From IMG/VR virus record IMGVR_UViG_3300028844_001770, positions 1 to 64,000 of that record: a DNA stretch of 64,000 bases; one strand, given 5' to 3'. Positions 260 through 23,143 of the stretch are shown in pieces. The notes below the pieces were generated by a model. That model made no database searches. It was not told the origin of the DNA and worked only from the letters and a program-made list of their open reading frames with translations. This DNA is from a virus. The position numbers and the translations under genes are program-made. Each line of letters starts with the position of its first letter. Position 1 is the first letter of the stretch.

Positions 260-261
260 AA

Positions 262-6458: not shown

Positions 6459-6639
6459 AAGTAAACTGAAAGACATAGATATAGAGATATCTGAAGCAAA
6501 AGTAAAAGAACTACACTCTTCAGATGCCAAGTTAATGGAAGTTCTAGGAGCCATAGATTGGAAGTTATGGGAAATACTTCAGATTATGCAGTCTTGGGAT
6601 AAAGAACAAGAGTTAGATGAGGACTTAGATGGCAAGTAA
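6451..6639 (+). CDS. Small acidic helical protein, 62 aa
   Basis: Start chosen at ATG 6451, preceded by GAGGAG at good spacing; a TTG at 6436 is less likely. It overlaps the end of the GT-A repeat gene by 8 bases and the start of the next gene by 11. The protein (MDKSKLKDIDIEISEAKVK...) is mostly charged helix ending in an acidic stretch, DEDLDGK. No family recognised. The tight overlaps on both sides suggest a co-translated accessory subunit for one of its neighbours. Confidence 0.6.
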   Translation: MDKSKLKDIDIEISEAKVKELHSSDAKLMEVLGAIDWKLWEILQIMQSWDKEQELDEDLDGK

Positions 6640-7583: not shown

Positions 7584-8786
7584 ATGCAATCGCATGAGAT
7601 AGTAGATAGATTAACAATATTATATGGTAACAAATATCCAGTTATCAATAGCCTTGAACGTGTGGCAAACACTGAAGTTCTAAGCGATATATTTGTTTTA
7701 TCATCATATCTCTTGGGTAAAAAACATAGAGAAACAGTTAGTGCTTTAAAAAATCTGATATATGAACGCAAACCTGAAGACAATATATTTGTGTTGTTTA
7801 AAGTTATTGAACCTATTGCAGACGACAACGAGGCATTACATGCATTACGAAATGTAGTTAGTGGCTCTAATTTTGTAAATCTACAAACAGAACTATTATT
7901 CAAGTTAATAACTAATTTAGATAATAGAAATGAAGAAATTATAAGTGCTATAAAGAATTTGGTATCAAGCAGTTTAGAACCAGATATGTTTCTACTGTTC
8001 AAAGTGTTACAAGCAATAGATACTGAAAACGAATGGATTAGAACACTAAAGAGTGTGACAATATATAAAACTAATATACTGAAGTTAGCACACAAATTGA
8101 CTGAAGAAAAGTATACTCTTCCAATAAATATGGGAAAGATGATAAAGAGATTCGAAGGTCAAGCACTTACTGATGCATTTAGTAGAGGACAACTTAGAAG
8201 TAAACTATGGGTAAGTGATACAGTTAATGACCTAGGTATTGATTTGGGTGATATGGTTTATGTATGTGCTGGATGGTATGGAGTACTACCATCGATACTG
8301 TTTGAGAGAAATAAAGTAGAAAATATATTAAGTTTTGATTCAGATGATACAACTGACAATCCTGCTGATACATTAAACAAAGAAAAGACAATTGATGGAT
8401 TAAAATTTAAGGCAGTAGTTAAAGATATCCACGAATTGAAATATAAAACTGAATCATTCAATGTGAACCACTATCAATACTCAGATGTGACTGAATTTAA
8501 CATAACAAAACAATCAATGCCTGTTAAGATGAATGCTACTTGTGTAATCAATACAAGTTGTGAACACATAGAAAACTTTGATAAATGGTGGGCTGGTATT
8601 CCAGATGGCATGCTAGTAATAATGCAGAACAACGATTTTGATGATGACGAAGCACACCAACACGCAGAAGATACTGTAACAAGTTTAGAAGAATTCTCTA
8701 ATAGATTAAATTTGTCTGAAAACTATTATGAAGGTACACTAGCACTAGAAGAATATAATCGTTATATGGTGATAGGTAGAAAATAA
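7584..8786 (+). CDS. Methyltransferase-like protein with helical N-terminal extension
   Basis: 400 residues. The first about 175 form repeated helical segments (for example SALKNLIYE, HALRNVVSGS, SAIKNLVSSS, about 35 residues apart), suggesting a HEAT-like or other solenoid scaffold. The C-terminal part has MVYVCAGWYGVLPSILFER, a SAM-binding-loop equivalent, then ILSFDSDD (motif II acidic) and VINTSCEHIENFDKWW. It is a paralogue of the gene just upstream, one base away. Its TAA overlaps the ATG of the first radical SAM gene, so all three are probably co-translated. Substrate unknown. Confidence 0.6.
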   Translation: MQSHEIVDRLTILYGNKYPVINSLERVANTEVLSDIFVLSSYLLGKKHRETVSALKNLIYERKPEDNIFVLFKVIEPIADDNEALHALRNVVSGSNFVNLQTELLFKLITNLDNRNEEIISAIKNLVSSSLEPDMFLLFKVLQAIDTENEWIRTLKSVTIYKTNILKLAHKLTEEKYTLPINMGKMIKRFEGQALTDAFSRGQLRSKLWVSDTVNDLGIDLGDMVYVCAGWYGVLPSILFERNKVENILSFDSDDTTDNPADTLNKEKTIDGLKFKAVVKDIHELKYKTESFNVNHYQYSDVTEFNITKQSMPVKMNATCVINTSCEHIENFDKWWAGIPDGMLVIMQNNDFDDDEAHQHAEDTVTSLEEFSNRLNLSENYYEGTLALEEYNRYMVIGRK

Positions 8787-9877
8787 TGAATCTATACAAC
8801 TATGAAGATATTAAAGCAGTACACTTAGAGATTACAGAGAAGTGCCAAGCAAGATGTCCTATGTGTGATAGGAATCAAAACGGTGGTGCAGATAATCCTA
8901 ATCTTGGTCTACATGAGTTGACAGTATCAGATGTTCAAAAGATATTACCACCAGAGTTTGTCAAGCAACTTGATAGACTTTATATGTGTGGCAACTTTGG
9001 CGACCCAATCATTGCGAGTGATACACTAGAGGTATTTCAGTATTTAAGAGAACAAAATAGCACAATGACACTTGGTATGAATACAAATGCAGGTGCTAAA
9101 AAGCCAGATTGGTGGCGTGAACTTGCAACCTCTCTAGGCAAAAATCACTATGTTAAGTTTTCATTTGATGGACTAGGAGATACAAATCATATGTATCGAC
9201 AAGGTGTTAACTGGGATATTGCATGGGAAAATGCAATGGCATTCATTGAAGCAGGTGGTAGAGCCCATTGGGATTATCTAATATTTGCACACAATGAACA
9301 TCAAGTAGAAGAAGCAGAAGCACTATCAAAAGAAATGGGCTTTGAAAAGTTCATAGCAAAGAAAACTGGTAGATTTTTCTCTACAATGAAACAACAAACT
9401 AAAGAAGAACATCAAGCAGTTGACCACAAAGGCGCACAAAAACAATTATTACAAAAGCCAAAAGAAGTTAAGTATCAAAATAATGCAATAAAAGATATTA
9501 TCAAGTTAGAAGAAAAGCATGGCTCATTAGAAAAGTATTATGATAATGTAAAGATAAAATGTAAAGTGGCAGCCGAGAAGAGTATGTATCTCAGTGCAGA
9601 GGGATTGATACTTCCTTGTTGTTGGGTTGCTGGAAGCATGTATAAGTTTTGGCAAAAACCCGGTGAGAATCAGGTATGGGAACTATTACAAGAATCAGGC
9701 GGCAAGGATGTTTTTGATGCTAAGAAGCACGGAATAAAATCAGTTTTGGGTAATGAATATTTTTCTGGTAGATTAGTAGATGGTTGGAATAAACCAAATA
9801 CTCATTTAGGAAAACCAATCGTATGTGCCCAAAAGTGTGGCGAAGAATTTGACGCCTTCAAGGCACAATTTAAATAA
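8786..9877 (+). CDS. Radical SAM protein with SPASM-like C-terminus (type A, copy 1)
   Basis: 363 residues. The CxxxCxxC motif is Cys20-x3-Cys24-x2-Cys27 (EKCQARCPMCDR), near the N-terminus as in compact radical SAM enzymes. MCGNFGDPI and FSFDGLGDTNHMYR are barrel strands. Late cysteines in LILPCCWVAG and VCAQKCGEEF suggest a C-terminal auxiliary cluster of SPASM/twitch type. The closest paralogues in the window are at 15621 and 19089, sharing PDWW, GLxDTNHxYR and HWDYLIF. Enzymes of this type cleave SAM to a 5'-deoxyadenosyl radical and commonly modify peptides. Target unknown. Start overlaps the stop of the methyltransferase-like gene (TAATG). Confidence 0.9.
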   Translation: MNLYNYEDIKAVHLEITEKCQARCPMCDRNQNGGADNPNLGLHELTVSDVQKILPPEFVKQLDRLYMCGNFGDPIIASDTLEVFQYLREQNSTMTLGMNTNAGAKKPDWWRELATSLGKNHYVKFSFDGLGDTNHMYRQGVNWDIAWENAMAFIEAGGRAHWDYLIFAHNEHQVEEAEALSKEMGFEKFIAKKTGRFFSTMKQQTKEEHQAVDHKGAQKQLLQKPKEVKYQNNAIKDIIKLEEKHGSLEKYYDNVKIKCKVAAEKSMYLSAEGLILPCCWVAGSMYKFWQKPGENQVWELLQESGGKDVFDAKKHGIKSVLGNEYFSGRLVDGWNKPNTHLGKPIVCAQKCGEEFDAFKAQFK

Positions 9878-9884
9878 TAAATAC
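9876..9884 (+). promoter_or_regulatory. Late-promoter-like AATAAATAC
   Basis: AATAAATAC overlaps the end of the first radical SAM gene, 33 bases before the DUF1127 gene. It differs in one base from the GATAAATAC repeated before late genes on the other strand. This is the only such site noticed on the rightward arm, so it could be chance in AT-rich sequence. Confidence 0.4.
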
Positions 9885-9917
9885 AGTAGTAAATAAAGTT
9901 AGGAACTAAAACGACAA

Positions 9918-10118
9918 ATGACACTATTCAAAAAAATCTATACACTTCCGTATAGATTCTGGAAATACTTAATGACATGGCAAATGCATAGAGATACAAT
10001 CAAACACCTCAACAGACTTTCAAACAGAGACCTAAGAGATATCGGGCTAACACGAGGCGATATTAACAATTTAGTCTGGATGAAGGAAGACTTTGAAGAA
10101 CAAGGCAAAGATGACTAA
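9918..10118 (+). CDS. DUF1127-family small protein
   Basis: 66 residues. HLNRLSNRDLRDIGLTRGDINNLV (residues 31-54) is the DUF1127 (YjiS-like) signature of L-S-D/N-R-x-L-x-D-I-G-L-x-R-x-x-I. In alphaproteobacteria, DUF1127 proteins are small, usually about 45-75 residues; some act as RNA-binding regulators, for example CcaF1 of Rhodobacter. It follows a late-promoter-like site and overlaps the next radical SAM gene by 8 bases. A phage copy suggests manipulation of host RNA or regulation and hints at an alphaproteobacterial host. Family match strong; function inferred. Confidence 0.8.
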   Translation: MTLFKKIYTLPYRFWKYLMTWQMHRDTIKHLNRLSNRDLRDIGLTRGDINNLVWMKEDFEEQGKDD

Positions 10119-11655
10119 TAAAAACACTGAAGAATGGCGCAAAAGAACCAAAGCACCAACAGACACATTTTGTCTGTTGCCATGGATACATTTGAGTACA
10201 CGTCCAAATGGACATATGCGAGTATGTTGTACTGCTAACGCATCAAGCGTGGGAGCAACAAACGATAAAGAGCATGGTGGCGAGGTAGGAGTTCTTAAAC
10301 AAGCAGATGGCAAACCAGCCAATCTAAATGTTACTGACCTAATGAGTAGTTGGAATAACGACTATATGAAGAATGTCAGAAAGCAAATGCTGAATGGTGA
10401 AAAACCAGCGTCATGTCTGAAATGTTATGCAGAAGAAGATGCAGGTCATATGTCTAAACGATACTGGGAAACAGAATATTGGGCAAGACGTGTAGACTTA
10501 ACAGAAATACTTGAAGAAACATCAGTAGATGGTGAGATACCACCAAAGATTCGCTACTTAGATTTACGTCTAGGTAGTAAGTGCAATCTGAAATGTATTA
10601 TGTGTTCACCACATGATAGTTCGTTGTGGGTTCCTGATTGGATTAAATTACATCCAACTATTGAGAATGAATCCCTTAAAGAAACTATGCAATGGGGCAA
10701 CAAAGGGCAGATTGATGGTGCTAGTTATAACTGGCATAAAAAGAATACTGCTTTCTGGGAACAGTTATACGAACAAATTCCACATATGAAACAGTTATAC
10801 TTTGCTGGTGGTGAAGCAACAATCATCGAAGAACATTATACTTTACTTGAAGAAGTTGTCAAAGCAGGATATGCCAAGAACATTGAATTAAGATACAACT
10901 CAAATGGTGTTGAAATGCCACAGAGATTATTTGATTTGTGGGATGAGTTTAAGAATGTGCGTTTTCATTACAGCGTAGATAGTATCGGTGAGATGAACGA
11001 TTACATTCGTTTCCCAAGTAAATGGGACCACACAGTTAAGATGTTTCATCTACTAGACAACACTGGACCTAATGTAGAAGTCACTGTTGCTTGTGCTGTT
11101 CAAGCCCTCAACATATACTACTTACCAGATTTTGTCAAGTGGAAATTAGAACAGAAGTTTAAGAAGATTAACTTATGGCCGTTGGGTGCAGGTATGATTA
11201 ACTATCACTTTGTTTATCATCCACCACATCTGAATGTTAAAGTTCTTCCTAACTGGTTTAAAGAGATGACACACGCTAAGTTTGATAAGTTCATTGAATG
11301 GCTAGAGGCAAACTGGGAACTATGTACAATAGGAGAAAGAGGCGAAGGCGTGACATATGATGAGTGGAGAGAAGCCGCATATGGTGTGAAAAGATTACGA
11401 GGTATGCTATCATTCTCAGAGAGTGGAGATTGGTCACGAGAGCGTATGCCAGAGTTTATAGAATACATTAACAAGATGGATGGAATAAGAGATACGAACT
11501 TCAGAGATGTATTTCCAGAGATGGCACCATTACTAGATTGGACACCAGATGACGGTGATGACTGGGATGGTGAATTTGATGACAGACTATTAAGAGAATT
11601 AGAAGACGATGGATTTCACGTTAACGCAGATGAATTAAATAGAGATGGAGAATAA
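10111..11655 (+). CDS. Twitch-domain radical SAM protein (type B, copy 1)
   Basis: Start at ATG 10111 (AAGG upstream; overlaps the DUF1127 stop), giving 514 residues. The N-terminal twitch-like part has FCLLPWIHLSTRPNGHMRVCC (Cys21, Cys39, Cys40) and SCLKC (Cys102, Cys105). The radical SAM motif SKCNLKCIMC follows (Cys158, Cys162, Cys165), then FAGGEATIIEEHY and FHYSVDSIGEMNDYIRFP. This N-terminal arrangement of cysteines before the barrel is seen in proteins annotated as twitch domain-containing radical SAM protein. Acidic tail (DDGDDWDGEFDDR). Four more relatives follow in the window. Substrate unknown; likely a protein, peptide or saccharide. Confidence 0.88.
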   Translation: MTNKNTEEWRKRTKAPTDTFCLLPWIHLSTRPNGHMRVCCTANASSVGATNDKEHGGEVGVLKQADGKPANLNVTDLMSSWNNDYMKNVRKQMLNGEKPASCLKCYAEEDAGHMSKRYWETEYWARRVDLTEILEETSVDGEIPPKIRYLDLRLGSKCNLKCIMCSPHDSSLWVPDWIKLHPTIENESLKETMQWGNKGQIDGASYNWHKKNTAFWEQLYEQIPHMKQLYFAGGEATIIEEHYTLLEEVVKAGYAKNIELRYNSNGVEMPQRLFDLWDEFKNVRFHYSVDSIGEMNDYIRFPSKWDHTVKMFHLLDNTGPNVEVTVACAVQALNIYYLPDFVKWKLEQKFKKINLWPLGAGMINYHFVYHPPHLNVKVLPNWFKEMTHAKFDKFIEWLEANWELCTIGERGEGVTYDEWREAAYGVKRLRGMLSFSESGDWSRERMPEFIEYINKMDGIRDTNFRDVFPEMAPLLDWTPDDGDDWDGEFDDRLLRELEDDGFHVNADELNRDGE

Positions 11656-11661
11656 TAAGAT

Positions 11662-12363
11662 ATGCCAGAAGTAAAACTAATATCATACAGCAAAGCAGTC
11701 GAAACACTAGAAGGTGATTTAAACGATGTACAGGAATTAATAGCATACTGTGCCAAAGTAAGCAATCCATCTAATCAGATTAATAAAGATACAAGTGCAA
11801 AATTAATTAGATACTTGATTAATCATCAACATTGGAGTCCACTTGAAATGGTTAGTGCTTGTTTAGAAATTGAAACAACCCGAGACATTGCACACCAAAT
11901 GGTTAGACATCGTAGTTTCTCATTTCAGGAATTCAGTCAGCGATATGCAGAACCATCAGAAATGGGCGAGCAATTTGTCACACGTGAATGTCGTTTACAA
12001 GACACAAAGAATAGACAGAACTCTATTGAAATAGAAAATGACCCAGCAACAGAATCGTCTCAATCACATATAGATTTGATTACTAATTGGCAGAGAAAAC
12101 AACATGGAATAATAAACCAAGCAAGAGACGTTTATAACTGGGCTATAGAAAATGGTATTGCTAAAGAACAAGCCCGTGTAGTATTGCCAGAAGGATTGAC
12201 CAAAACAAGATTATACATGAATGGTACAATTCGTAGTTGGGTACACTATATTGAATTACGTGGTGCCAACGGTACACAAAAAGAACATATGCAAATAGCA
12301 CATGCTTGTGCTAAAGTTATTGCAGAGATATTTCCGTTGATTGGAGAAATAAGTGGCAATTAG
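11662..12363 (+). CDS. thyX: Flavin-dependent thymidylate synthase ThyX
   Basis: 233 residues with the ThyX signature RHRSFSFQEFS (R-H-R-x7-S) plus QRYAEP, and the C-terminal LPEGLTKTRLYMNGTIRSWVHYIELR region that binds flavin and dUMP. ThyX methylates dUMP to dTMP using methylene-THF, NADPH and FAD, supplying thymidylate for phage replication. Length is typical of the family (about 220-250). It lies between radical SAM genes, 6 bases after one and overlapping the following PP-loop gene by 11. A DHFR gene also occurs at 26129, although ThyX regenerates THF itself and does not strictly need one. Confidence 0.95.
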   Translation: MPEVKLISYSKAVETLEGDLNDVQELIAYCAKVSNPSNQINKDTSAKLIRYLINHQHWSPLEMVSACLEIETTRDIAHQMVRHRSFSFQEFSQRYAEPSEMGEQFVTRECRLQDTKNRQNSIEIENDPATESSQSHIDLITNWQRKQHGIINQARDVYNWAIENGIAKEQARVVLPEGLTKTRLYMNGTIRSWVHYIELRGANGTQKEHMQIAHACAKVIAEIFPLIGEISGN

Positions 12364-13009
12364 TAAGACAATATCTTGTGCTGGAACTGACTTGCATATC
12401 TTTGATGACGACATAGGAGTGTGTGTTAGTGGTGGATTAGATAGTGCAATACTATTGTATTATCTAATGAAACATACTAAGTCTACTATTCATATATATT
12501 CTCAAGGATTCAATGCCAAGCGTAGAAGAAATACCATAATTGCACCACAAGTGGTAGAGAAATGTATACAACTAACTGACAATATAAATATAGTACAGCA
12601 TATAGACTACAAAGATGTGGGAACTTGGAGTTCAATTGCTGAAGCGCCAATTATGGCATTAGAACAAAATTTGATAAAAAGATTAGTAATTGGAGTAACA
12701 ATGAATCCACCTGACGATGTGGCAAATTCTTTTACTCCAGAACTAGACTTTGATTCAAGAAGAAAGACAACAGGAGATAACGATTTGTTTGTTAATTCTG
12801 GTACAATATATTATCCTTGGGCAAATATAGATAAAAGAGATATTGCAAAGATGTATAAAGAAGAAGATTTGATGACCAGTTTATTCCCTGTTACAAGAAG
12901 TTGTGAATATGACCCTACTTGTGATTACTTTGACGATATAGAAGACCCTAACTTGGGTCATTGTGGAGAGTGTTGGTGGTGTAAAGAACGAGAATGGGGA
13001 TTTAAGTAA
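12353..13009 (+). CDS. PP-loop ATP pyrophosphatase, QueC/ExsB-like (copy 1)
   Basis: 218 residues from a GTG start with a GGAG ribosome site, overlapping thyX. The PP-loop is CVSGGLDSAILLYY near residue 24. The C-terminus has TRSCEYDP and HCGECWWCKEREWGF, the zinc-binding C-x(n)-C-G-x-C-x2-C arrangement of QueC (7-cyano-7-deazaguanine synthase). QueC converts carboxy-deazaguanine to preQ0 with ATP and ammonia. No QueD, QueE or FolE partner is visible here, so the substrate may be a different carboxylate. A second relative is at 20221. PP-loop assignment firm; preQ0 function uncertain. Confidence 0.75.
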   Translation: MAISKTISCAGTDLHIFDDDIGVCVSGGLDSAILLYYLMKHTKSTIHIYSQGFNAKRRRNTIIAPQVVEKCIQLTDNINIVQHIDYKDVGTWSSIAEAPIMALEQNLIKRLVIGVTMNPPDDVANSFTPELDFDSRRKTTGDNDLFVNSGTIYYPWANIDKRDIAKMYKEEDLMTSLFPVTRSCEYDPTCDYFDDIEDPNLGHCGECWWCKEREWGFK

Positions 13010-13019
13010 AGGATATAAT

Positions 13020-14381
13020 ATGAGTAAAGACTTTGAGAACGTACCAAAATCAAAAGGAAATACACTTTGTCCAATGCCTTGGAACTCAATCAATCTTAGA
13101 AATAATGGAGATTTGAGAATATGCTGTAATACGAATTCGTATTCACCTCAACGTGGCATAATGAAGAAAGAAGATGGTACTCCTTATAACGCTGGACGTG
13201 ATGATTTTAATGAAGCCAGAAATGCGATTATATTGAAAGATGTTCGTAAGACTATGATGAAAGGCGAATGGCATCCAGAATGTGAACGTTGCAGACAAGA
13301 AGAAGTCAACGGTATTAGGTCGAGAAGAGAATATGAAACTGAAGATTGGGGACTTACTGAAGAGAGAATCCATGAGGTTACACAGGAAGATGGTACACTA
13401 GATGTTGAAGAACAGAACATCGATTTCTTTGATATCCGTTATGGAAATTTCTGCAATCTAAAATGTAGAATGTGTGGGCCAACAGATTCGCATATGTGGT
13501 ATGATGATTTCGTAAAAGTACACGGAAGAACACACTATAAAGATACACACGACAAAATTCAGTTAGTACAGAATAACAAAGGCAAGTGGGCTACTGACCA
13601 ATATGATTGGTTTAAGAATGCTGACCATTATTGGGAACAGTTTGACAAGTATTGTACTAGTGCTAAGAAATTGTATATAGTTGGTGGTGAACCATTAATC
13701 ATTGCAGAACACCAAGAGAGTTTAGAGAAACTCGTTGCGAGTGGTAATGCACATAAGATACAATTAGAATATAACACTAACCTAACAATGGTACCAGATA
13801 GATTAGTATATCTTTGGGAACAGTTTAAGCAGATACGTATTGGTGTTAGTATTGATGGATGTAATGATGTGTTCGATTATCAAAGAACACCAGCAAAGTT
13901 TCCAGCAGTGTACAAACATATGAAGACACTAAATGATAATGAACAAATAAACTTAAAAGCATGGTTTGCCTTTACAGTTACTCCAATGAATGTATATCAT
14001 ATGCCAGAGTTTATGAAATGGAAGTTAGAAGAGTCTGGATTAGATAAGTTTAATCCTCATCATAGTCCACGACCAACCATAACACAACATATGTGTCACT
14101 CTCCAAAATACTATAACATTAAAGTGTTACCAGAAAAGAACAAGCAAGAAGTAGTTGCATTGTATGAAGAATATAAAGAATGGGTAATGGCAAGTGACCA
14201 TCCAAATAAAACCAAGAAGCATTTCTGTACGGTATTAGACTCAACTGTTAGATTTATGTTGAGTGAGGACTATTCTAAAGAATGGCTAGGTGAATTTGTA
14301 AAAATGACTAGCAAACTAGATGAAGTAAGAGGACAAAATATATTAGATATTGTTCCGCAGTATAAAGATTTATTTGGATAA
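13020..14381 (+). CDS. Twitch-domain radical SAM protein (type B, copy 2)
   Basis: ATG 13020 chosen because AAAGGA precedes it; the longer frame would run into the PP-loop gene. 453 residues: twitch cysteines in LCPMPWNSINLRNNGDLRICC pattern (Cys17, Cys35, Cys36) and CERC (Cys88, Cys91). The radical SAM motif is GNFCNLKCRMC (Cys145, Cys149, Cys152), followed by VGGEPLIIAEH and GVSIDGCNDVFDYQRTP. It closely parallels the protein at 10111, including length and domain order, so it is probably a duplicate with a changed substrate. Substrate unknown. Confidence 0.88.
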   Translation: MSKDFENVPKSKGNTLCPMPWNSINLRNNGDLRICCNTNSYSPQRGIMKKEDGTPYNAGRDDFNEARNAIILKDVRKTMMKGEWHPECERCRQEEVNGIRSRREYETEDWGLTEERIHEVTQEDGTLDVEEQNIDFFDIRYGNFCNLKCRMCGPTDSHMWYDDFVKVHGRTHYKDTHDKIQLVQNNKGKWATDQYDWFKNADHYWEQFDKYCTSAKKLYIVGGEPLIIAEHQESLEKLVASGNAHKIQLEYNTNLTMVPDRLVYLWEQFKQIRIGVSIDGCNDVFDYQRTPAKFPAVYKHMKTLNDNEQINLKAWFAFTVTPMNVYHMPEFMKWKLEESGLDKFNPHHSPRPTITQHMCHSPKYYNIKVLPEKNKQEVVALYEEYKEWVMASDHPNKTKKHFCTVLDSTVRFMLSEDYSKEWLGEFVKMTSKLDEVRGQNILDIVPQYKDLFG

Positions 14382-14388
14382 AATTGAT

Positions 14389-15624
14389 ATGAGAGATACT
14401 CCTTATTGTAATGCACCTTGGTTAGGTTTGTTTTTTGAAGGAACAAGAGGTTGTGCTCCGTGTTGTGAATGGAAAGGCTCTGTTTTTCCTGGTACAATCA
14501 CAGAATATCAAAAATCAGATTATCTAAAGAACTTTAAAAAGAAAATGTATTCTGATAAAATGCATGCCAATTGTATTGAGTGCGAAACAAATGAGAAAAA
14601 CAATGCAAAAATTGGATCCACTAGAAAATATTATGAACAATACGATTTGGAATCACATTGTGCTGGAGAAGAAGTTTGTTCTGATACTAATTGTAATTCA
14701 TCCAATGGAATAACTAAAATCATAAAATTGGATTTTAGAGCAGGCAATAAATGTAATATGATGTGTAGAATGTGTAGTCCAGAATCTTCATCATTACTTG
14801 AAGAAGAAGCACTAAAACACGGACCTGCAAGTCAGATTTCAACAATCGATGGTATACCTACACTAAATTATGTGAAAAATATAGATTCGTCAGATGTTTA
14901 TGACTTAGACTTAAGTGACTGCAAAGAGATTTCCATTCTTGGTGGTGAACCCTCAATTGATTTAAATGTAAGAAAGTTTATTGATTACGTTGCTGAAAAA
15001 TATACAGACGTAGCAGTAATGGTTACAACAAATGCCACAAATGCATCAGATTCATGGTTCAACACTTTAAAAAGGTTTTGTATGGGAAAAAAATTGCAGA
15101 TAGTATTGTCAGTTGACGCTGTTGGACCAACACAAGAGTATCAAAGAAAAAGCAAAATTCCCTGGAGTAAAATTAGAAATAACATATTAAAGTATAAAGA
15201 AGCATCAGCCGGCCATGATAATTGTCATCTTAATATTCAATGCACCTTAACTTCTATTAATTTAGTAACTATAGATAAGTGGTGGGATGAAATGATGGAT
15301 TTTAATATAGATGTACAGGTAAATCCCGTACATCATCCATTCCCTCTATCAGTTTCAGCAATACCGCCAGAATTAAAAAACAAGTCTGTAGAATGGTTGA
15401 AGAATTGGTTGTTACAGTTTTCAGTAAAAAAAGAATCGACTGATATAACTGTTCGTAATAAAATTTTGACAACAAACAATGTAATAAAAGTATTAAAAAA
15501 TACAGAATTTAATGTCGAAAATCTTCATAAATTTCAAGCGGCAACTAGAAAATTAGATAAGATAAGAGGCGAAGATATAATAAAATTAGATGATAGATTC
15601 ACTAGTATGATGGATAAAAAATGA
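14389..15624 (+). CDS. Twitch-domain radical SAM protein (type B, copy 3)
   Basis: Start at ATG 14389, 7 bases after the previous stop; the ribosome site is weak, so coupling is likely. 411 residues: YCNAPW (Cys7), CAPCC (Cys22, Cys25, Cys26), CIEC (Cys62, Cys65), an extra Cys-rich stretch (CAGEEVCSDTNC, about 91-102) and AGNKCNMMCRMC (Cys122, Cys126, Cys129). ILGGEPSID and LSVDAVGPTQEYQR follow. The additional cysteines before the barrel are not found in its paralogues and might bind zinc or another cluster. Its end overlaps the next gene by 4 bases (ATGA). Confidence 0.87.
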   Translation: MRDTPYCNAPWLGLFFEGTRGCAPCCEWKGSVFPGTITEYQKSDYLKNFKKKMYSDKMHANCIECETNEKNNAKIGSTRKYYEQYDLESHCAGEEVCSDTNCNSSNGITKIIKLDFRAGNKCNMMCRMCSPESSSLLEEEALKHGPASQISTIDGIPTLNYVKNIDSSDVYDLDLSDCKEISILGGEPSIDLNVRKFIDYVAEKYTDVAVMVTTNATNASDSWFNTLKRFCMGKKLQIVLSVDAVGPTQEYQRKSKIPWSKIRNNILKYKEASAGHDNCHLNIQCTLTSINLVTIDKWWDEMMDFNIDVQVNPVHHPFPLSVSAIPPELKNKSVEWLKNWLLQFSVKKESTDITVRNKILTTNNVIKVLKNTEFNVENLHKFQAATRKLDKIRGEDIIKLDDRFTSMMDKK

Positions 15625-16694
15625 GTTATTTAAATGTAGACGAAATAACAGGCATACATATTGAACATACAAGTAAATGTAATCTTCTTTGTCCTCAATG
15701 TGCTAGGGTTGGCAGTGATGGTAAAAAGAATCCTATACTACCAATAGGTGAACTGACAATTGAAGATTATAAAAGTTTACTAACACCAGCCTTTGCTAGT
15801 CATATAGATAGAGTATTCTGGTGTGGAAATTACGGAGATAGTATTGCTTCAAATAACTTTTTAGAGTGTTTAGAATTTGTAAGACATTCTGGAGTTAAAG
15901 GACTGACAGTAGTGACAAATGGCAGTGCCCAAAAGCCAGACTGGTGGATTAAAATGGCAAAGATACTAGATAGAGATACAGATAAAGTAGAGTTTAGTAT
16001 TGACGGACTAGAAGACACAAACCACATATATAGAATTAATAGTAACTGGCAAAAATTGAAAGAGAACGTAGAGGCTTTTATTGGTGCTGGTGGTAACGCA
16101 CATTGGGACTATTTGATATTTGACCACAACAGACATCAACTAGCAGAAGTAAAAGATGTGGCTGATGAGATGGGTTTTAAACATATTAACTTTAAGAATA
16201 CAAGTAGGTTTATAAACTTAAATGACTTTAATCAAATTTTAGAACTAGAGACAAAGAATTATAATATCATATCAAGTTGGGAAAATAAAAACACAGACAA
16301 GTATGAACAAATCATAGATAAATTTGGCAACTTCAATGCATATGTTGACCAGACTCCTATAACATGCAAATATAAAAGAGATAAGTTTGTTTATATTGAT
16401 TTTCAAATGAAATTATGGCCATGTTGTTGGGTAGGCGCACCAACATACTTTTATAATGAAGATAATATACAGTCATCACAACTGAAATCCTTAGAGAATA
16501 AATACGGTAAAGAGTTTAATTCATTAAGAACAAATACATTGGAAGAAGTATTAAAAAAAGATTTCTATGCTACTGATTTAGTAAGCAGTTGGAATAATAA
16601 CATAGAAGATAAAAATCCAAAGTTGTTTACATGTGGAAGAACATGTGGTGATGATTTTGAGTTCAGTAGTCGAGGAAGAGGACTAAATGAATAA
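15621..16694 (+). CDS. Radical SAM protein with SPASM-like C-terminus (type A, copy 2)
   Basis: 357 residues with HTSKCNLLCPQCARVG (Cys20, Cys24, Cys27), at the same positions as the protein at 8786. Shared segments include WCGNYGDSI, SIDGLEDTNHIYR and AHWDYLIFDHNRHQ. Late cysteines occur in LWPCCWVGAPTYF and TCGRTCGDDFEF, suggesting an auxiliary cluster. Coupled by an ATGA overlap to the type B gene upstream, as if a type A and a type B enzyme are made together. Substrate unknown. Confidence 0.9.
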   Translation: MSYLNVDEITGIHIEHTSKCNLLCPQCARVGSDGKKNPILPIGELTIEDYKSLLTPAFASHIDRVFWCGNYGDSIASNNFLECLEFVRHSGVKGLTVVTNGSAQKPDWWIKMAKILDRDTDKVEFSIDGLEDTNHIYRINSNWQKLKENVEAFIGAGGNAHWDYLIFDHNRHQLAEVKDVADEMGFKHINFKNTSRFINLNDFNQILELETKNYNIISSWENKNTDKYEQIIDKFGNFNAYVDQTPITCKYKRDKFVYIDFQMKLWPCCWVGAPTYFYNEDNIQSSQLKSLENKYGKEFNSLRTNTLEEVLKKDFYATDLVSSWNNNIEDKNPKLFTCGRTCGDDFEFSSRGRGLNE

Positions 16695-16715
16695 TATATT
16701 GGAGAAAAGTTAGAT

Positions 16716-17939
16716 ATGAAAGATAATGGTGCTATATGTATGTTGCCTTGGACCCATATGGCAGTTTCCATGAAGAACACTACACGACCTTGTTGTAGAT
16801 TTATAGTGGGAAACGATGAAGTTGAATTAGAAGAAGATGCTATGAAGCCGTATGATGACAAGTACAAATGGCTACGAAGAGATATGCTCGAAGGCAAGAA
16901 AGCCAAAGAATGCTCACTATGTTACAGTGAAGGCAAGCATTCAATGAGATGGGCAGCCAACAATGTACTATTCAAACTAGAAGAAGTAAATCTTACTGAA
17001 GAATTTGATAAGTTGCGTTCAATTGAATTAAGTTTAGATAACCTTTGCAATTTACAATGTAAAATGTGTGACTCTTTATTCTCAAGTAAACTGTATTACC
17101 GAGATGATTTCTTAATGAATAAACTAGGCCTTCGTGGTCGCAAACCTACAAAGATACCAAAACAAAGAATTGAATATTTGAAGTCTCTAAATGTAGACTG
17201 GGAAAACTTAGAAAAAGTTAAGATATTAGGTGGCGAACCATTCTTCTCACCAAACTTTCCAAAGTTAATAGATTGGCTAATAGAAAAATGTGATGTAGAA
17301 AATATGCTATTAGAAATAATCACAAACACAACACAGAGACTAGATAATGTGATGATTGAGAAACTTAATCGTTTCAGAAAAATCATATTGACTGGGTCAA
17401 TAGATGGGTGTAATGATTATAATCAATATCAACGTTGGGGTTCACCTGGCTGGCAAGAATCAATAGAAATATATGAAGAATACCTATCGCAGTTAAAGAA
17501 CATAGAAAAGGGACACATACACTCCACGTATAGTACGTTAAATCTAAATGGCTTTGCGGATGATATGGACTATTTTTCTGAGAATCATCCTGACTGGTCC
17601 GTATCTTTTAAGATAGTAGAGTCGGGCGAACTTAGTCCATATTATGCACCAGATTGGTTTCAACAATGGATATTAGATAAATGGGATGTTAACGAGCATT
17701 CAGAGATAGCACAAAATAAGATTGATAGAGCAAAGAGTATACTAAAAACAAATAATAAAAAAACTGAAGATAAAGAATATACGTGGTATTTATTTCTGAG
17801 AAAGACAAAAGAACTAGATGGTTATTATGATTCTAATATAGAAGATTATAATCCTGAATTAGTAAATATAATGAGAGAAAAAGATACTCTTTATAACTTA
17901 GAAGAGTTTAAAAAGGCGGATAAATCAGATGAAGTGTAA
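16716..17939 (+). CDS. Twitch-domain radical SAM protein (type B, copy 4)
   Basis: 407 residues, preceded by GGAGAAAAG. The N-terminus is ICMLPWTHMAVSMKNTTRPCC pattern (Cys8, Cys26, Cys27), then CSLC (Cys66, Cys69) and DNLCNLQCKMCDS (Cys111, Cys115, Cys118). ILGGEPFFSPNFP and TGSIDGCNDYNQYQRW are barrel segments resembling those of the other type B proteins. The spacing between twitch and radical SAM motifs is about 40 residues shorter than in the first two copies. It overlaps the next gene by 11 bases. Substrate unknown. Confidence 0.88.
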   Translation: MKDNGAICMLPWTHMAVSMKNTTRPCCRFIVGNDEVELEEDAMKPYDDKYKWLRRDMLEGKKAKECSLCYSEGKHSMRWAANNVLFKLEEVNLTEEFDKLRSIELSLDNLCNLQCKMCDSLFSSKLYYRDDFLMNKLGLRGRKPTKIPKQRIEYLKSLNVDWENLEKVKILGGEPFFSPNFPKLIDWLIEKCDVENMLLEIITNTTQRLDNVMIEKLNRFRKIILTGSIDGCNDYNQYQRWGSPGWQESIEIYEEYLSQLKNIEKGHIHSTYSTLNLNGFADDMDYFSENHPDWSVSFKIVESGELSPYYAPDWFQQWILDKWDVNEHSEIAQNKIDRAKSILKTNNKKTEDKEYTWYLFLRKTKELDGYYDSNIEDYNPELVNIMREKDTLYNLEEFKKADKSDEV

Positions 17940-19098
17940 GTACGCATGGTCGCATTTAGACTTAAAGTCTGGTGGATTTGCACCGTGCTTTAGATTTAAA
18001 AGAAATGATTTTGTAGAATCTGATATAGATAAACTACCATCACAGGTTATCAACAATGCCGACTTTGTTAAAGTTAGACAGCAGTTGCGTAATGATGAAT
18101 GGCCTGCTGGATGTATTGACTGCCAGATACAAGAAGAGTCTGGTCTATCTTCATACAGAACTAGGTCGTTAGAGAATACAATACATACTGAACCAGATTA
18201 TGATTCCGATATTATTCATATAAAAGATTTACAATTAAAGATGACACGAGCATGTAACTACAAGTGTAGACATTGTGATACGTCATCGAATTCTAGGTTC
18301 GAACAGACTGGTAAAGATAATCCAACAATAGAATTAAAGTTGAAGAAAGATTTTAACTTCAGTCACATATCTCCACCTACAAATAAAATAGATATTCCAG
18401 ATGATAGAGTTATGGATGATTTGTTTGAAAATGTATTACCAACTGTGGAGAACATTGAATTCTCTGGCGGTGAACCATTCTATACGAGAGATATGTATAA
18501 GACATTGCAACGAATGATTGATGACCCGAGAATTGATACAAAAAAGATATCTCTTGTTTACAATAGTAACATGAGTATACTTGAGTATAAAGGATGGACA
18601 GTTAAAACATTATGGCCACACTTCAAAAGAGTTAGCGTAACGGTATCATTAGACGGCACCGGAGACTTATTTAACTACTTTAGGACAGATGGTGACTATC
18701 AGACTGTGCTAAATAATATCGTTGAGATTGCACCTTTAGTTAACAATTTCTTATTTGTATGTACTACATCGGCGTATCATGCATTCTATATGAATGAAAT
18801 ATATAATGATTTTTTAGATATTAAAAAGTTAATACCAACTAAGCCAGTAAATATAAGAACTACATTTGTTCACTGGCCACAGGCGTTAGATATTGTGAAC
18901 TTAGAAGAAGAAACGAAAGACAAAATACTAGAGGACCTGGTTATAAATGATTTTACTGCCGAGTTTGCTCAAAGATTGAAAGGTAAAAGAACATTGAATA
19001 AATGTCAATTCAGAGAACTAGTTAAACTACAAGATGAACTTTATGATGTATCGTGCGAAACAATGGCACCTAAAGTATGGGATTACGTATGGAAATAA
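17929..19098 (+). CDS. Twitch-domain radical SAM protein (type B, copy 5, reduced N-terminus)
   Basis: 389 residues. The N-terminus CKYAWSHLDLKSGGFAPCF keeps the pattern, but the usual CC pair is a single Cys20 followed by Phe. CIDC (Cys62, Cys65) and TRACNYKCRHCDTSS (Cys109, Cys113, Cys116) follow, then EFSGGEPFYTRDMY and SVSLDGTGDLFNYFR-like barrel strands. The missing cysteine may alter cluster ligation in the twitch part. It overlaps the previous gene by 11 bases and the following type A gene by 10. Substrate unknown. Confidence 0.87.
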   Translation: MKCKYAWSHLDLKSGGFAPCFRFKRNDFVESDIDKLPSQVINNADFVKVRQQLRNDEWPAGCIDCQIQEESGLSSYRTRSLENTIHTEPDYDSDIIHIKDLQLKMTRACNYKCRHCDTSSNSRFEQTGKDNPTIELKLKKDFNFSHISPPTNKIDIPDDRVMDDLFENVLPTVENIEFSGGEPFYTRDMYKTLQRMIDDPRIDTKKISLVYNSNMSILEYKGWTVKTLWPHFKRVSVTVSLDGTGDLFNYFRTDGDYQTVLNNIVEIAPLVNNFLFVCTTSAYHAFYMNEIYNDFLDIKKLIPTKPVNIRTTFVHWPQALDIVNLEEETKDKILEDLVINDFTAEFAQRLKGKRTLNKCQFRELVKLQDELYDVSCETMAPKVWDYVWK

Positions 19099-20219
19099 CA
19101 ATAGAAGTAACATCTAATTGTCAAGCAGGGTGTCCTGGGTGTATAAGACATAAAGTATTTAATCCAGATACTGATTTAGTTTCTAATCCACCAAAGAACT
19201 TAAATCTTCCAGTAGATGTTCATAACCAATTAATTGATGAAGTTTATGACAAAGTAACCCACTTGACTTATGATGGTAGTTTTGGTGATAGTCCATTCCA
19301 TCCTGACTTCTTAGAACTTATAGAGTATTCAGCATCAAAGTGTACAAAGTTACAAGACCTTTCTATTTCTACAAATGGTTCATATAAACCACCTGCATTC
19401 TGGAAAGAACTTGGAGAGATATTACATAAGTATCTACCAAAAAACCATCATGTGATGTTTGACCTTGATGGTGTTGATAATGAAACACAAATTATGTACA
19501 GAGTTGATACAAACTATGATAAGATAATACAGAATGCCGAAGCATTTAGTAGTGGTGGTGGTAATGCTGTTTGGAAAATGATTCCATTTGATTTCAACGA
19601 AGACCTTGTAGATAAGGCGAAAGAGTTAGCAGAGAAGCATAACTTCTATGGCTTTCAAAGAAATAGAATTCAACGGGTTGAACAAAAAGCAGTTAAGATT
19701 GCTTTGAGTGAAAAGTTGAATGAACTTGATAAGATGAAAGAAGAAGATGAAGATTTGATGAATATCAGCGATGATTTAGTTGAAAAGAATTTAAAGAAGG
19801 CTAAAAATCTTATCAAAGATATACCAGTTGATACTAACCTTAATGCTGAAGCAAATCTGGAGAAAATCAGAGAAAACACAGGCATAACTTGTAAATGGGG
19901 AACTGCTAACAGATATCAGATATCACACGATGGTTCTGTCTGGAGATGTTGTTGGATGAATTCAAATTATCAATATAAAACACAATTCGATGCTGGTGGA
20001 AGAGAAAACTGGCAAAGATTCACTAAAAGATACAATGAAGGTTGGAATAACTTGCATTCTAATTCATTTAGTGATATAATAAGACATGATTTCTTTACAA
20101 AAGATTTAGAAGAAAGTTTTTCAAATAAGTTTGACGATGAAGTCAATCCTAAATTAAAAGTATGCACAACGAGGTGCTCCAATCTATCAATAAAACTAAC
20201 AAAACGAGGAATATACTAA
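19089..20219 (+). CDS. Radical SAM protein with SPASM-like C-terminus (type A, copy 3)
   Basis: Start taken at ATG 19089 (MEITIEVTSNCQAG); an alternative ATG at 19077 adds four residues. 376 residues with Cys11, Cys15 and Cys18 in SNCQAGCPGCIR. TYDGSFGDSPFH, FDLDGVDNETQIMYR and VWRCCWMNSNYQYK align in order with the other type A proteins. A lysine/glutamate-rich coiled stretch (about 205-265) is specific to this copy. Late CTTRCSN may complete an auxiliary cluster. One base separates it from the second QueC-like gene. Substrate unknown. Confidence 0.88.
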   Translation: MEITIEVTSNCQAGCPGCIRHKVFNPDTDLVSNPPKNLNLPVDVHNQLIDEVYDKVTHLTYDGSFGDSPFHPDFLELIEYSASKCTKLQDLSISTNGSYKPPAFWKELGEILHKYLPKNHHVMFDLDGVDNETQIMYRVDTNYDKIIQNAEAFSSGGGNAVWKMIPFDFNEDLVDKAKELAEKHNFYGFQRNRIQRVEQKAVKIALSEKLNELDKMKEEDEDLMNISDDLVEKNLKKAKNLIKDIPVDTNLNAEANLEKIRENTGITCKWGTANRYQISHDGSVWRCCWMNSNYQYKTQFDAGGRENWQRFTKRYNEGWNNLHSNSFSDIIRHDFFTKDLEESFSNKFDDEVNPKLKVCTTRCSNLSIKLTKRGIY

Positions 20220-20220
20220 A

Positions 20221-21018
20221 ATGATTATAGAAGACAACGTGGTTGTACACCGTAGAGGCAATGATGCAGACCAAGAGCATCCTGAAGAATACAAAATTAA
20301 ACTTAATCTTGGACACGAAAACATAGGACTAGGAATGTCTGGTGGTTTAGACTCGTCTATATTGTTGTGGCTATTAGCACATCATATTAATGAGAACAAA
20401 CTAGACACTACCATACACATTTGGTCTTGTATTCACCAAGAAAAGCCTTGGCAACATATCCATGCCAAAAAAGTAATTGCATTTGTAAAAGAAGAGTTTC
20501 CAAATGTGAAGTTTGGAAAACATAGAATTACAAGAACATCTGCTAAAGATTACATTGACAACGGAAGAAAGAATTCTTGGGCACTAGTAGAAGAGGAAAA
20601 GGTTACTGCATTATTTAATGGCGTAACTGTTAATCCACCTGAAGAAATTGGCGCACCAATTTGGAAGAAGAGATGGAACCGTAGAGCAGAGACTAGAGAT
20701 TGGAACAAAAAAGAGTTTTGGGTTGCTGAAAGAAGCGAAGCGTATGTTATGGCAACAGAACCACATCATACAGAATATCTTCCTTTCGTTCATACAGATA
20801 AGAGAATTGTTCTGGCTCTTTATAAAAAATATGGTTTACTTGCTGACCTTGGTGCATTGACTAGGTCATGTGAGGGCTGGATTGAAGAAACTGAAAACTT
20901 TACAAAAGAATGTAAAGGTTGTTGGTGGTGTGTTGAGAAAGAATGGGCAATAGCAGAAATATTTAACTATGATGTGAACCATAATCTTTCAACTTGGAAA
21001 GAGTTAGACATAGAATAA
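20221..21018 (+). CDS. PP-loop ATP pyrophosphatase, QueC/ExsB-like (copy 2)
   Basis: 265 residues. The PP-loop GMSGGLDSSILLWLL is near residue 38, and the C-terminal zinc-type cysteines are TRSCEGW and ECKGCWWCVEKEW, parallel to the gene at 12353. It is about 45 residues longer, with an insert rich in Trp, Lys and Arg (IWKKRWNRRAETRDWNKKE). Two QueC-like proteins inside one radical SAM block suggest ATP-dependent amidation, thiolation or nitrile formation on the same unknown product. The zinc cysteines appear intact in both copies. Confidence 0.72.
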   Translation: MIIEDNVVVHRRGNDADQEHPEEYKIKLNLGHENIGLGMSGGLDSSILLWLLAHHINENKLDTTIHIWSCIHQEKPWQHIHAKKVIAFVKEEFPNVKFGKHRITRTSAKDYIDNGRKNSWALVEEEKVTALFNGVTVNPPEEIGAPIWKKRWNRRAETRDWNKKEFWVAERSEAYVMATEPHHTEYLPFVHTDKRIVLALYKKYGLLADLGALTRSCEGWIEETENFTKECKGCWWCVEKEWAIAEIFNYDVNHNLSTWKELDIE

Positions 21019-21021
21019 ACG

Positions 21022-21342
21022 ATGAGCCTAGAATTACAATTAGAATCAAAATGCACTATATGTGGCAATGAGTATGATGAGACATGTGGTGGAGTACAAG
21101 GACATTTCGGTATAACACCAGTTACGTTTTGTGAATGGTGCTATTCAAGTGTTTATGATATGGTTGAGCAAGATATAAGGGATGGTATTAGAGAAGAATT
21201 AAACGAAGATGAATCCGAAGATATCAAAACTATCCTTGATACTGTTGGTATAGATTATGAAACAGTTATAAACAAGTATAATAAAAAACAAAGATTCTTC
21301 AACTTTAAATTTGATGAGCCGTGTGGAATGAGTCATAAATGA
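21022..21342 (+). CDS. Small zinc-ribbon-like protein, 106 aa
   Basis: Two CxxC pairs (CTIC at 11-14 and CEWC at 37-40) frame a glycine-rich loop with CGGVQGHFG, a treble-clef or zinc-ribbon layout. An acidic helical tail (REELNEDESED) follows. It starts four bases after the QueC-like gene and overlaps the next radical SAM gene by four (ATGA). It could be a carrier or chaperone for a modification substrate, or itself a target. No named family recognised. Confidence 0.6.
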   Translation: MSLELQLESKCTICGNEYDETCGGVQGHFGITPVTFCEWCYSSVYDMVEQDIRDGIREELNEDESEDIKTILDTVGIDYETVINKYNKKQRFFNFKFDEPCGMSHK

Positions 21343-22520
21343 ATGATAAAGAAAACGAATTATATTGGTCACAGTACGACTTCACAGAGATACCATTTGA
21401 TGATATCGTTAGTGTAGGACAACGAACTCTTTTATACAGAGATTTGTTTTCAGTGAGTTGGTTACTGGGAAGATTCTGTAATTATAAGTGTTCTTATTGT
21501 TGGCCTTATGCTAGAAGTGACCGCAAAGACCACAGACCAACTGAACTATGTCTAGCAACGATAGACGAAATAAAAAGGCAAGCAAGACAAAATGGATTTA
21601 ACTCTTTTCACTTTTCTTTATCTGGTGGTGAACCTACTTTTCATCCTGGCTATTTGGACATCCTCAATCACCTCGCTGGAGATGTGGATAATACTAATTA
21701 TACTTCTACTCATATGACAACTAATATGTCACGCAATATGAAGTGGCATAAAACATACTGTGAGACCGTCTCCAAGATGCACAGAGCGAGTATCACAGCA
21801 TCATTCCACAGTGAGTATGCAAAGCAAGAAGAATTTGCAGATAAGTTATTATTCTGTATGGAATATGATATTCAAGTGACAATCAATATGGTTCTTGTTC
21901 CTGAGTGGTTTGACCGAGACTGGGAAAGAGCATTATACTTTCACAACCGTGGTATAAATGTTACACTAAAACCTCAAAGTGACCCAACTGCATCTTTTGT
22001 AGTACATGGTTATACAGATGACCAACTAAAAACTATGCGTAATGGCATGCCTCAGCGTGACTACACAACAACTCTACAAGAAGAAACTGGTATAAAAGTA
22101 GTAAGACCAAAACCTAAATCAGGCAGTATGTGGAGAATGGATGCACAGAATGGTGATGACAAATCAGTGCCACCAATTATGCAAGTAGAGTTCCAAGATA
22201 GTAAGGGTAAGAAATGGTATATGGACCAAGCAGAACGTTTCAATGCTTTCAACTTTAATAAGTTCAAAGGATGGGAATGCACAAGTGGGTTTAAAGGTAT
22301 CATTATCAGAGAACCAGATGGGTCTATTAAGCGGTCATACAGTTGTGCTGATGAACCATTAGGATATGTAGAGAGTGGCTTTAAACTATTTGACAAACCA
22401 AAAGTTTGTATTAGTGAGAGTTGTGTAAGTAGTGCAGATAGTAAGATACCTAAACGTAAACCAGGTGCAATGATACCGATATATCCAGGTGATACATCCT
22501 TCAATACGGAGAAAGAATAA
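21339..22520 (+). CDS. Radical SAM protein (type C, no N-terminal twitch)
   Basis: 393 residues. The radical SAM motif is GRFCNYKCSYCWPYAR (Cys47, Cys51, Cys54), followed by the classical SGGEPTFHPGYLDIL and THMTTNMSRN. Cysteines in EPLGYV-adjacent SYSCADE and the C-terminal VCISESCVSS suggest a further cluster. It lacks the PW...CC N-terminal block of type B and the CCW motif of type A, so it is a third lineage. Its TAA overlaps the ATG of the 2OG oxygenase gene. Substrate unknown. Confidence 0.88.
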   Translation: MNDKENELYWSQYDFTEIPFDDIVSVGQRTLLYRDLFSVSWLLGRFCNYKCSYCWPYARSDRKDHRPTELCLATIDEIKRQARQNGFNSFHFSLSGGEPTFHPGYLDILNHLAGDVDNTNYTSTHMTTNMSRNMKWHKTYCETVSKMHRASITASFHSEYAKQEEFADKLLFCMEYDIQVTINMVLVPEWFDRDWERALYFHNRGINVTLKPQSDPTASFVVHGYTDDQLKTMRNGMPQRDYTTTLQEETGIKVVRPKPKSGSMWRMDAQNGDDKSVPPIMQVEFQDSKGKKWYMDQAERFNAFNFNKFKGWECTSGFKGIIIREPDGSIKRSYSCADEPLGYVESGFKLFDKPKVCISESCVSSADSKIPKRKPGAMIPIYPGDTSFNTEKE

Positions 22521-23143
22521 TGTTTGAAGACAGAATCTACGAAATGACTGAAATAACTTATGACCGAAAACGATTGGAAGACTTCTATGAAAAAGTTAAA
22601 CATTTGGCAGTAGATTATGCATCAATCAGAAGTAGAGCAACAAAAGGTTTATTCAGTTCTATAAAGTTAGACGGAGATGAGTTTGAAGGTAAAGAATTCC
22701 TTGATTATCCAGAAATATCAGAATTAGTAGAACTATTTAATCCAGTGAAAAAACAAATAGGAAATGGAAATATAGCAATAACAGTTTATTCACCTTATTT
22801 TAATTTTCACCCTCATACAGATTTTTCCAGAAAGGCTGTGATAATGTTTCCTATACTACCAGAAGATGGTGGTAAAGGATTAGATTTCTATGCTGATGAG
22901 ATACTAGGAGAAGATGCACATTTGATACACTCAGATGACCAAGCAATGGCTCCGGGACATGATGAAGAGTTCTACCTAGGAACATGCCAATATTCAACTA
23001 TACATCCTACTTTAATGGACACAGAAAGAGTTCATGGAGTAAGAAATGATGACAAAACCAGAGTGTATCTTCAAATAAGTCTCTATGATATGTTTGAAGA
23101 CACCGTAAAGCGTATAAAATCTGGTGATTTTTTAAATCTATAA
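22520..23143 (+). CDS. 2OG-Fe(II) oxygenase-like protein
   Basis: 207 residues. The double-stranded beta-helix signature is visible as FHPHTDFSRKAVIMFPI (His99-x-Asp101), VHGVRND (His172) and TRVYLQISL (Arg181, the usual 2-oxoglutarate-binding Arg), in the expected order and spacing. Such enzymes hydroxylate or demethylate proteins, small molecules or nucleic acids. Translationally coupled to the last radical SAM gene, which makes it a likely late step of the same pathway. A different oxygenase of the Asp/Asn hydroxylase type lies at 25388. Substrate unknown. Confidence 0.75.
   Translation: MFEDRIYEMTEITYDRKRLEDFYEKVKHLAVDYASIRSRATKGLFSSIKLDGDEFEGKEFLDYPEISELVELFNPVKKQIGNGNIAITVYSPYFNFHPHTDFSRKAVIMFPILPEDGGKGLDFYADEILGEDAHLIHSDDQAMAPGHDEEFYLGTCQYSTIHPTLMDTERVHGVRNDDKTRVYLQISLYDMFEDTVKRIKSGDFLNL

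Follow-up and report, generated by a model that had tools for sequence, protein, structure and literature searches.

Marine phages rich in radical S-adenosylmethionine (rSAM) genes are already known. PMC5332604 describes marine T4-like phages with numerous rSAM genes and an A-type carrier (one genome, TARA_ERS488813_N000010, has 12 rSAM genes), and PMC7029224 describes how pelagimyophages gained rSAM cassettes in their host-recognition cluster, in the tail-fiber region. What is new here is a conserved module together with its bacterial relatives. The window analyzed, a stretch of 64,000 nucleotides (nt) from the 66.5-kb IMG/VR virus record IMGVR_UViG_3300028844_001770, contains an operon encoding nine rSAM proteins, designated A1 to A3, B1 to B5 and C. 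Its core consists of a carbamoyltransferase, a protein with a predicted GT-A glycosyltransferase (GT) fold (GTrep), two methyltransferase-like proteins (MT1 and MT2) and the rSAM proteins A1 and B1, to which C belongs as well. Some Bdellovibrionota carry A1, B1, C and GT together as one unit. Unexplained rSAM gene counts in marine phages can now be exchanged for a defined and testable unit, three rSAM proteins and a glycosyltransferase, with one distribution in bacteria and phages.

A core shared by phages and Bdellovibrionota

A search with A1 yields 17 viral contigs, and the gene order carbamoyltransferase-GTrep-MT1-MT2-A1-B1 is common to all that are long enough. (Some viral A1 genes are overlapped by a longer open reading frame, or ORF, and are listed separately from the gene-order comparison.) Group 1, to which the window belongs, continues with Q1-B2-B3-B4-B5-A3-Q2-ZnF-C, with variations, where Q1 and Q2 are QueC-like PP-loop proteins and ZnF is a small CxxC protein. 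Group 2 contigs carry one or two added rSAM genes within the carbamoyltransferase-to-B1 stretch, followed by other rSAMs, in many cases an Asp/Asn-hydroxylase-like gene, a protein of ~530 amino acids (aa), diverged copies of A and B, and C (82-84% identity). The records searched hold 8-18 rSAM genes each; the group 2 record G014 has a second array (L103:558-19099) in which several rSAMs and a GTrep homologue lie near a 2213-aa virion structural protein, phrog_10938. Identity across the viral relatives is 74-95% for A1, B1 and C and 46-77% for Q1, MT1 and MT2, while B3, B4, B5, A2, A3, Q1, Q2 and the thymidylate synthase ThyX vary in presence between the phage groups. Because A1, B1 and C are strongly kept and other genes are less so or are group-specific, the viral operon is a fixed core with a variable accessory part. 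An A-type Fe-S carrier is among the next genes upstream in several relatives, and a NifU/IscU-like domain among the flanking genes; both fit the load of Fe-S enzymes. Phage isolates include no close relative (B1 at most 23% identity, Q1 and GTrep without a match).

The B profile also finds B1 orthologues, at 53-67% identity, in metagenome-assembled genomes (MAGs), mainly of Bdellovibrionota and several on contigs of 140-490 kb. Adjoining them are A1 (44-53%), C (56-66%), GTrep orthologues consisting of a single domain, and MT2. With fixed thresholds, A1, C, GT and MT2 are found at 13, 10, 9 and 8 of 17 loci with a B1 orthologue, versus 0, 0, 1 and 0 of 54 loci with other twitch-domain rSAMs. 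Among 192 Bdellovibrionota genomes, B1 occurs in 10, C in 11, A1 in 10 and GT in 11. All ten B1-positive genomes have C, nine have A1 and eight have GT; the corresponding numbers for the 182 B1-negative genomes are 1, 1 and 3 (nominal Fisher p for co-occurrence with B1: C 7e-16, A1 1e-13, GT 2e-10). Family-2 glycosyltransferases make up 8 of 81 proteins neighboring the core in bacteria. In the B1 tree (drawn with a midpoint root, with paralogues falling outside), the phages sit inside the Bdellovibrionota clade beside a marine Halobacteriovoraceae sequence, with supports of 98/92 and 100/99, and matches labeled Chloroflexi, Gammaproteobacteria, Rickettsiales and Neisseriaceae group together in a clade apart. 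One contig filed under a Chloroflexi MAG (L042, PAAV01000055.1, 161 kb) has an rSAM array and also encodes a terminase, so it is probably a mis-binned phage.

A reading made earlier from the sequence alone had proposed that the array is a complete biosynthetic pathway, a proposal to be abandoned should relatives have the genes scattered or should most copies have broken catalytic residues. The core is not scattered, its order being kept in viral contigs and A1, B1, C and GT co-occurring in Bdellovibrionota, and the residues are intact in all nine proteins; conservation of the core genes together, with intact residues, supports a pathway. Completeness fared less well, as there is no fixed set of nine enzymes: B3-B5, A2, A3, Q1, Q2 and ThyX come and go. 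Differences of this kind between the groups, like the cassette gains described in PMC7029224, would be expected of a hypervariable cassette locus that gathers independent rSAMs with several substrates and serves no single pathway, only A1-B1-C-GT being a unit. We consider this distinctly unlikely, since the genes are packed on the same strand with overlaps and since A2-, B2- and Q2-like genes also cluster together in Bdellovibrionota (loci L045, L050 and L052, along with a B12-binding rSAM), in parallel to the phage accessory part.

The nine radical SAM proteins and their operon

All nine proteins match PF04055 (A1, B3 and A2 slightly below the Pfam cut-off), and each has an intact CxxxCxxC motif where the sequence-only reading had placed it. 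The chance of this motif in a composition-shuffled protein of this type is ~0.006, so nine in nine proteins are not accidental. All-against-all BLAST bears out the three lineages that had been proposed, A1-A2-A3 (26-33% identity), B1-B5 (20-33%) and C apart. The NCBIfam model NF033640, for an rSAM subfamily with an N-terminal twitch domain, has a curated cut-off of 170 bits; B1-B5 pass it (432, 346, 219, 204 and 213 bits), while A1 (50 bits), A2 (28) and C (38) fall short and A3 has no match. Each protein has four auxiliary Cys residues, N-terminal in B and C-terminal in A and C, that are kept in relatives; in C they are C314, C336, C357 and C362, invariant with respect to Bdellovibrionota orthologues. 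None of the nine has the seven-Cys SPASM motif for two auxiliary clusters, all being four-Cys and twitch-like with SPASM Pfam scores below cut-off. The GGE motif is canonical in B and C and takes the variant form G-x-x-GD in A.

C is rejected as a prokaryotic viperin on its scores (41.6 bits against a cut-off of 180 for NF038283; PADLOC pVip, 40.8 bits). A defense role for the array is likewise rejected, PADLOC returning weak viperin matches only.

The tight packing noted earlier is real, all adjacent genes being separated by short overlaps or by gaps of no more than 53 nt, but the limits drawn for the block, 8786-22520, were too narrow. The rSAM genes belong to a single plus-strand operon of about 220-23143 (Table 1), which 5' of 8786 adds two SGNH-like genes, a 41-aa micro-ORF, a Nol-type O-carbamoyltransferase, the 924-aa GTrep and the two methyltransferase-like genes. 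Among the interleaved genes that had been named, Q1, one of the two PP-loop proteins, matches PF06508; the zinc finger and the oxygenase have motifs without Pfam support. A profile of MT2 finds nothing significant in PDB (best match, a dimethyladenosine transferase, E 0.14).

Table 1. Genes of the rSAM operon in the window (AF2, AlphaFold2; pLDDT, predicted local distance difference test; 2OG, 2-oxoglutarate)
Feature	Position	Strand	Basis and remarks
SGNH-hydrolase-like protein 1	220..993	+	ORF; kept 5' of carbamoyltransferase in relatives (operon head); named by sequence motif only
Second SGNH-like protein	986..1966	+	ORF; motif only
Micro-ORF, 41 aa, carbamoyltransferase partner	1971..2096	+	ends KKRDPFIYK; found in both phage groups
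Nol/NodU-type O-carbamoyltransferase	2074..3630	+	phrog_1601 E 8e-98; Carbam_trans_N/C; PDB NovN E 6e-58, GdmN, TobZ
GTrep, divergent predicted GT-A-fold protein	3684..6458	+	one complete domain at the C-terminus (5748-6455), preceded by ~4 degenerate repeats
MT1, methyltransferase-like	6629..7582	+	28% identity to MT2; no Pfam match; fold inferred from sequence
MT2, methyltransferase-like	7584..8786	+	homologues adjoin B1 in bacteria
A1, rSAM, C-terminal twitch-like Cys (core)	8786..9877	+	PF04055
DUF1127 protein, probable passenger	9918..10118	+	PF06568 E 2e-12; only in some relatives
B1, N-terminal-twitch rSAM (core, most conserved)	10111..11655	+	NF033640 432 bits; AF2 pLDDT 88.8
ThyX thymidylate synthase, probable passenger	11662..12363	+	PF02511 E 2e-43
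Q1, QueC-like PP-loop ATPase, Zn-type Cys	12353..13009	+	PF06508 33.4 bits; invariant SGGxDS and four Cys
B2, N-terminal-twitch rSAM	13020..14381	+	NF033640 346 bits
B3, N-terminal-twitch rSAM (accessory)	14389..15624	+	NF033640 219 bits
A2, rSAM (accessory)	15621..16694	+	PF04055 27.4 bits, slightly below cut-off; related to A1
B4, N-terminal-twitch rSAM (accessory)	16716..17939	+	NF033640 204 bits
B5, N-terminal-twitch rSAM (accessory)	17929..19098	+	NF033640 213 bits
A3, rSAM (accessory)	19089..20219	+	PF04055 30.6 bits
Q2, QueC-like PP-loop ATPase	20221..21018	+	28% identity to Q1; phrog_1550
Small CxxC protein	21022..21342	+	Cys pattern only; no family
C, rSAM, C-terminal four-Cys site (core)	21339..22520	+	PF04055 E 8.5e-13; 55-65% identity to Bdellovibrionota orthologues
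Possible 2OG-Fe(II) oxygenase	22520..23143	+	HxD...H-type motif only; no Pfam or PHROG match

Beyond the operon, 23549-24382 encodes a Cys-free, Ala/Val-rich protein whose tail repeats VVDNVV(T/A)P(I/V); the gene after it, at 24370, is for a small membrane-like protein. At ~25-26 kb the GC skew and the coding strand flip together, the rSAM operon forming the plus-strand arm and the replication genes lying on the minus strand. The 1094-aa protein at 52277-55561 has a cytidylyltransferase-like N-terminus (phrog_395).

Glycan, peptide or DNA as the target

Twitch-domain enzymes act on substrates that include sugars and peptides, and belonging to this rSAM class therefore does not by itself settle which of the two is the target. 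The twitch region of BtrN, a sugar-tailoring twitch rSAM enzyme, aligns with the N-terminal part of the B profile, but at no better than E 0.0098, and Foldseek results for the B1 model do not tell peptide and sugar enzymes apart. GTrep has no confident Pfam family in a scan of the window's proteins, but its C-terminal domain gives an AF2 model (pLDDT 88) for which the best 50 Foldseek matches in PDB are all nucleotide-sugar enzymes, nearly all of them GT-A glycosyltransferases (E 1e-4 to 1e-3, probability 0.92-1.00). They include WrtF, RmlT, the PBCV-1 capsid glycosyltransferase, SunS, TarS and GalNAc transferases, as well as HddC, a nucleotidyltransferase. The first Asp of a DxD-like motif is invariant in 18 homologues, and phage and bacterial versions share many further residues without change. 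By its modeled fold and this motif the domain would qualify as a GT-A glycosyltransferase. Phage versions of GTrep (854-1522 aa; the window and L009-L025) have 4-7 copies of the nucleotide-binding half, and their length varies with the number of these degenerate GT-A half-domains. The carbamoyltransferase has both the Carbam_trans_N and the Carbam_trans_C domain, as expected of the Nol/NodU class, and among its closest solved relatives, NovN, GdmN and TobZ, the sugar-modifying NovN is closest.

It would appear, then, that the evidence leans toward a glycan or glycoconjugate, because of the GT-A fold, the sugar-type carbamoyltransferase, the family-2 glycosyltransferase neighbors in bacteria, and the clusters in isolates that carry nucleotide-sugar genes and tail fibers. 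(The target had earlier been left open among a virion or host protein, a glycan and a nucleobase.) That this is a phage-borne biosynthetic operon for building or tailoring a glycan or glycoconjugate, with a core borrowed from bacteria and a variable accessory tail, is a reading on which we are evenly balanced. Several observations weigh against it. The B1 profile and model are closest to SkfB and SuiB, which are maturases of ribosomally synthesized and post-translationally modified peptides (RiPPs). TM-scores of the GTrep Foldseek matches are low (0.31-0.46), and no nucleotide-sugar synthesis gene is recognized within the window's operon. The carbamoyltransferase and its micro-ORF also adjoin primase-helicase genes in other phages. 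Finally, the Fisher p-values are nominal because the genomes tested are related.

The main rival is a peptide or protein target (a RiPP, a virion protein or a host protein), whose side chains or backbone would be modified by the rSAMs and then finished by the glycosyl-, methyl- and carbamoyltransferases. Twitch and SPASM rSAMs often act on peptides, as do the nearest relatives of B1 just named; the nearest match of C, a weak one, is an anaerobic sulfatase-maturating enzyme; SunS, among the structural matches of GTrep, is a peptide glycosyltransferase; and a conserved 41-aa micro-ORF lies inside the operon. The micro-ORF belongs to a family of 33-50 aa ending in (K/R)KRDPFIYK, immediately 5' of Nol-type carbamoyltransferases in many marine phages (L118-L193). 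In a pattern scan, which itself imposes the C-terminal motif, such ORFs are mostly directly ahead of carbamoyltransferase genes, usually without nearby rSAMs; the cyanophage and Mosig loci examined lack them. Because it tracks the carbamoyltransferase even in phages without nearby rSAMs, we rejected 1971-2096 as an rSAM precursor peptide; it may be a small protein that works with the carbamoyltransferase or is modified by it. Around the core, the phages and Bdellovibrionota have no further conserved short ORF in common, and no PqqD/RRE domain is found in the phage records or on the core-bearing contig of a Halobacteriovoraceae genome, so that the array shows neither of the hallmarks of RiPP rSAM clusters, a precursor peptide and an RRE/PqqD domain. 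The absence of an obvious precursor, remarked on from the sequence alone, therefore stands. A peptide target seems to us unlikely.

DNA is the third candidate, the array serving to hypermodify phage DNA through QueC-like, ThyX, carbamoyl and oxygenase steps. QueC-like proteins are in the operon, a phage carbamoyltransferase makes 5-carbamoyloxymethylcytosine (PMC8670742), carbamoyltransferase genes adjoin replication genes elsewhere, and FolE (GTP cyclohydrolase I) is encoded in six group 2 records (G005, G006, G010, G011, G012 and G014). Q1, however, passes Pfam PF06508 and misses the equivalog model for QueC, 7-cyano-7-deazaguanine synthase (TIGR00364, 19.6 bits against a cut-off of 150.3), and Q2 has no QueC match. 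PTPS/QueD is missing from 10 of 11 records (G012 being the exception) and FolE from the window-type records, absences that are not final as the records are fragments; a 7-deazaguanine DNA modification pathway is weakened accordingly. ThyX is optional: it is in the operon of group 1, and all group 2 records tested (G005-G014) and none of group 1 have ThyA (PF00303) instead, so that the ThyX gene in the operon probably serves ordinary nucleotide metabolism. With the core also on bacterial chromosomes and a predicted GT-A fold in GTrep, we regard DNA as a very improbable target.

If the target is a glycan or glycoconjugate, the GT-A protein would transfer a nucleotide sugar; the rSAM enzymes might perform radical oxidation, epimerization, deoxygenation or bond formation on the sugar or its carrier; the PP-loop proteins could convert a carboxylate to an amide via adenylation; and methyl and carbamoyl groups would be added last. 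The product would most likely be found on the virion, or on the surface of the infected cell, where it could keep out competing phages. The core may have entered the phage lineage from a marine bacterium resembling Bdellovibrionota, possibly the phage host, and the lineage would then have gained further rSAM genes by duplication and exchange, much as O-antigen cassettes are gained and exchanged. The more specific proposal that A1-B1-C-GT is a new multi-radical pathway of marine Bdellovibrionota, captured by phages and putting on virions or the host surface a sugar or glycoconjugate altered by radical reactions of a new kind, we advance tentatively, as a possibility we would not yet favor. The shared module would tie radical enzymology to the chemistry of phage or host surfaces, and it points to a lineage that may be donor or host of a phage group without cultured members. 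Because some Bdellovibrionota are predators that can be cultured, the pathway could be investigated outside phages.

Comparison with known systems

The phages of PMC5332604 and PMC7029224 resemble this one in their many rSAM genes, the Fe-S A-type carrier, and rSAM cassettes in the tail-fiber region; as far as their accessible text goes, they offer gene counts without a conserved A1-B1-C-GT module or a relationship to Bdellovibrionota. Nor did the literature, incompletely covered, yield a description of the module or of its occurrence in Bdellovibrionota. Among isolates, Pelagibacter phage Mosig has rSAMs with a carbamoyltransferase, an ArnB-like aminotransferase and an epimerase, between tail fibers and VrlC, and Campylobacter phage CP220 has clustered rSAMs with NDP-sugar transferases. 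Both are alike in joining rSAM clusters to carbamoyl-, amidino- or sugar-transferase genes, but their rSAMs are of other subtypes, at about 20-30% identity, and B1 is not found there. Placement of the phage beside Mosig is rejected, since matches outside the operon are limited to the polymerase (30%) and a single small ORF. In cyanophages the carbamoyltransferase adjoins heptose and nucleotide-sugar genes and tail fibers.

At the level of single families, B1-B5 are members of NF033640 above its cut-off, a family with no function stated; what differs here is the presence of five paralogues alongside A- and C-type rSAMs and a glycosyltransferase in a single operon. BtrN and the B proteins both have one auxiliary cluster, with the twitch N-terminal in B. 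Homology to NovN, GdmN, TobZ and the Nol O-carbamoyltransferases extends over most of the length of the carbamoyltransferase, which is set apart by its phage context and its micro-ORF partner.

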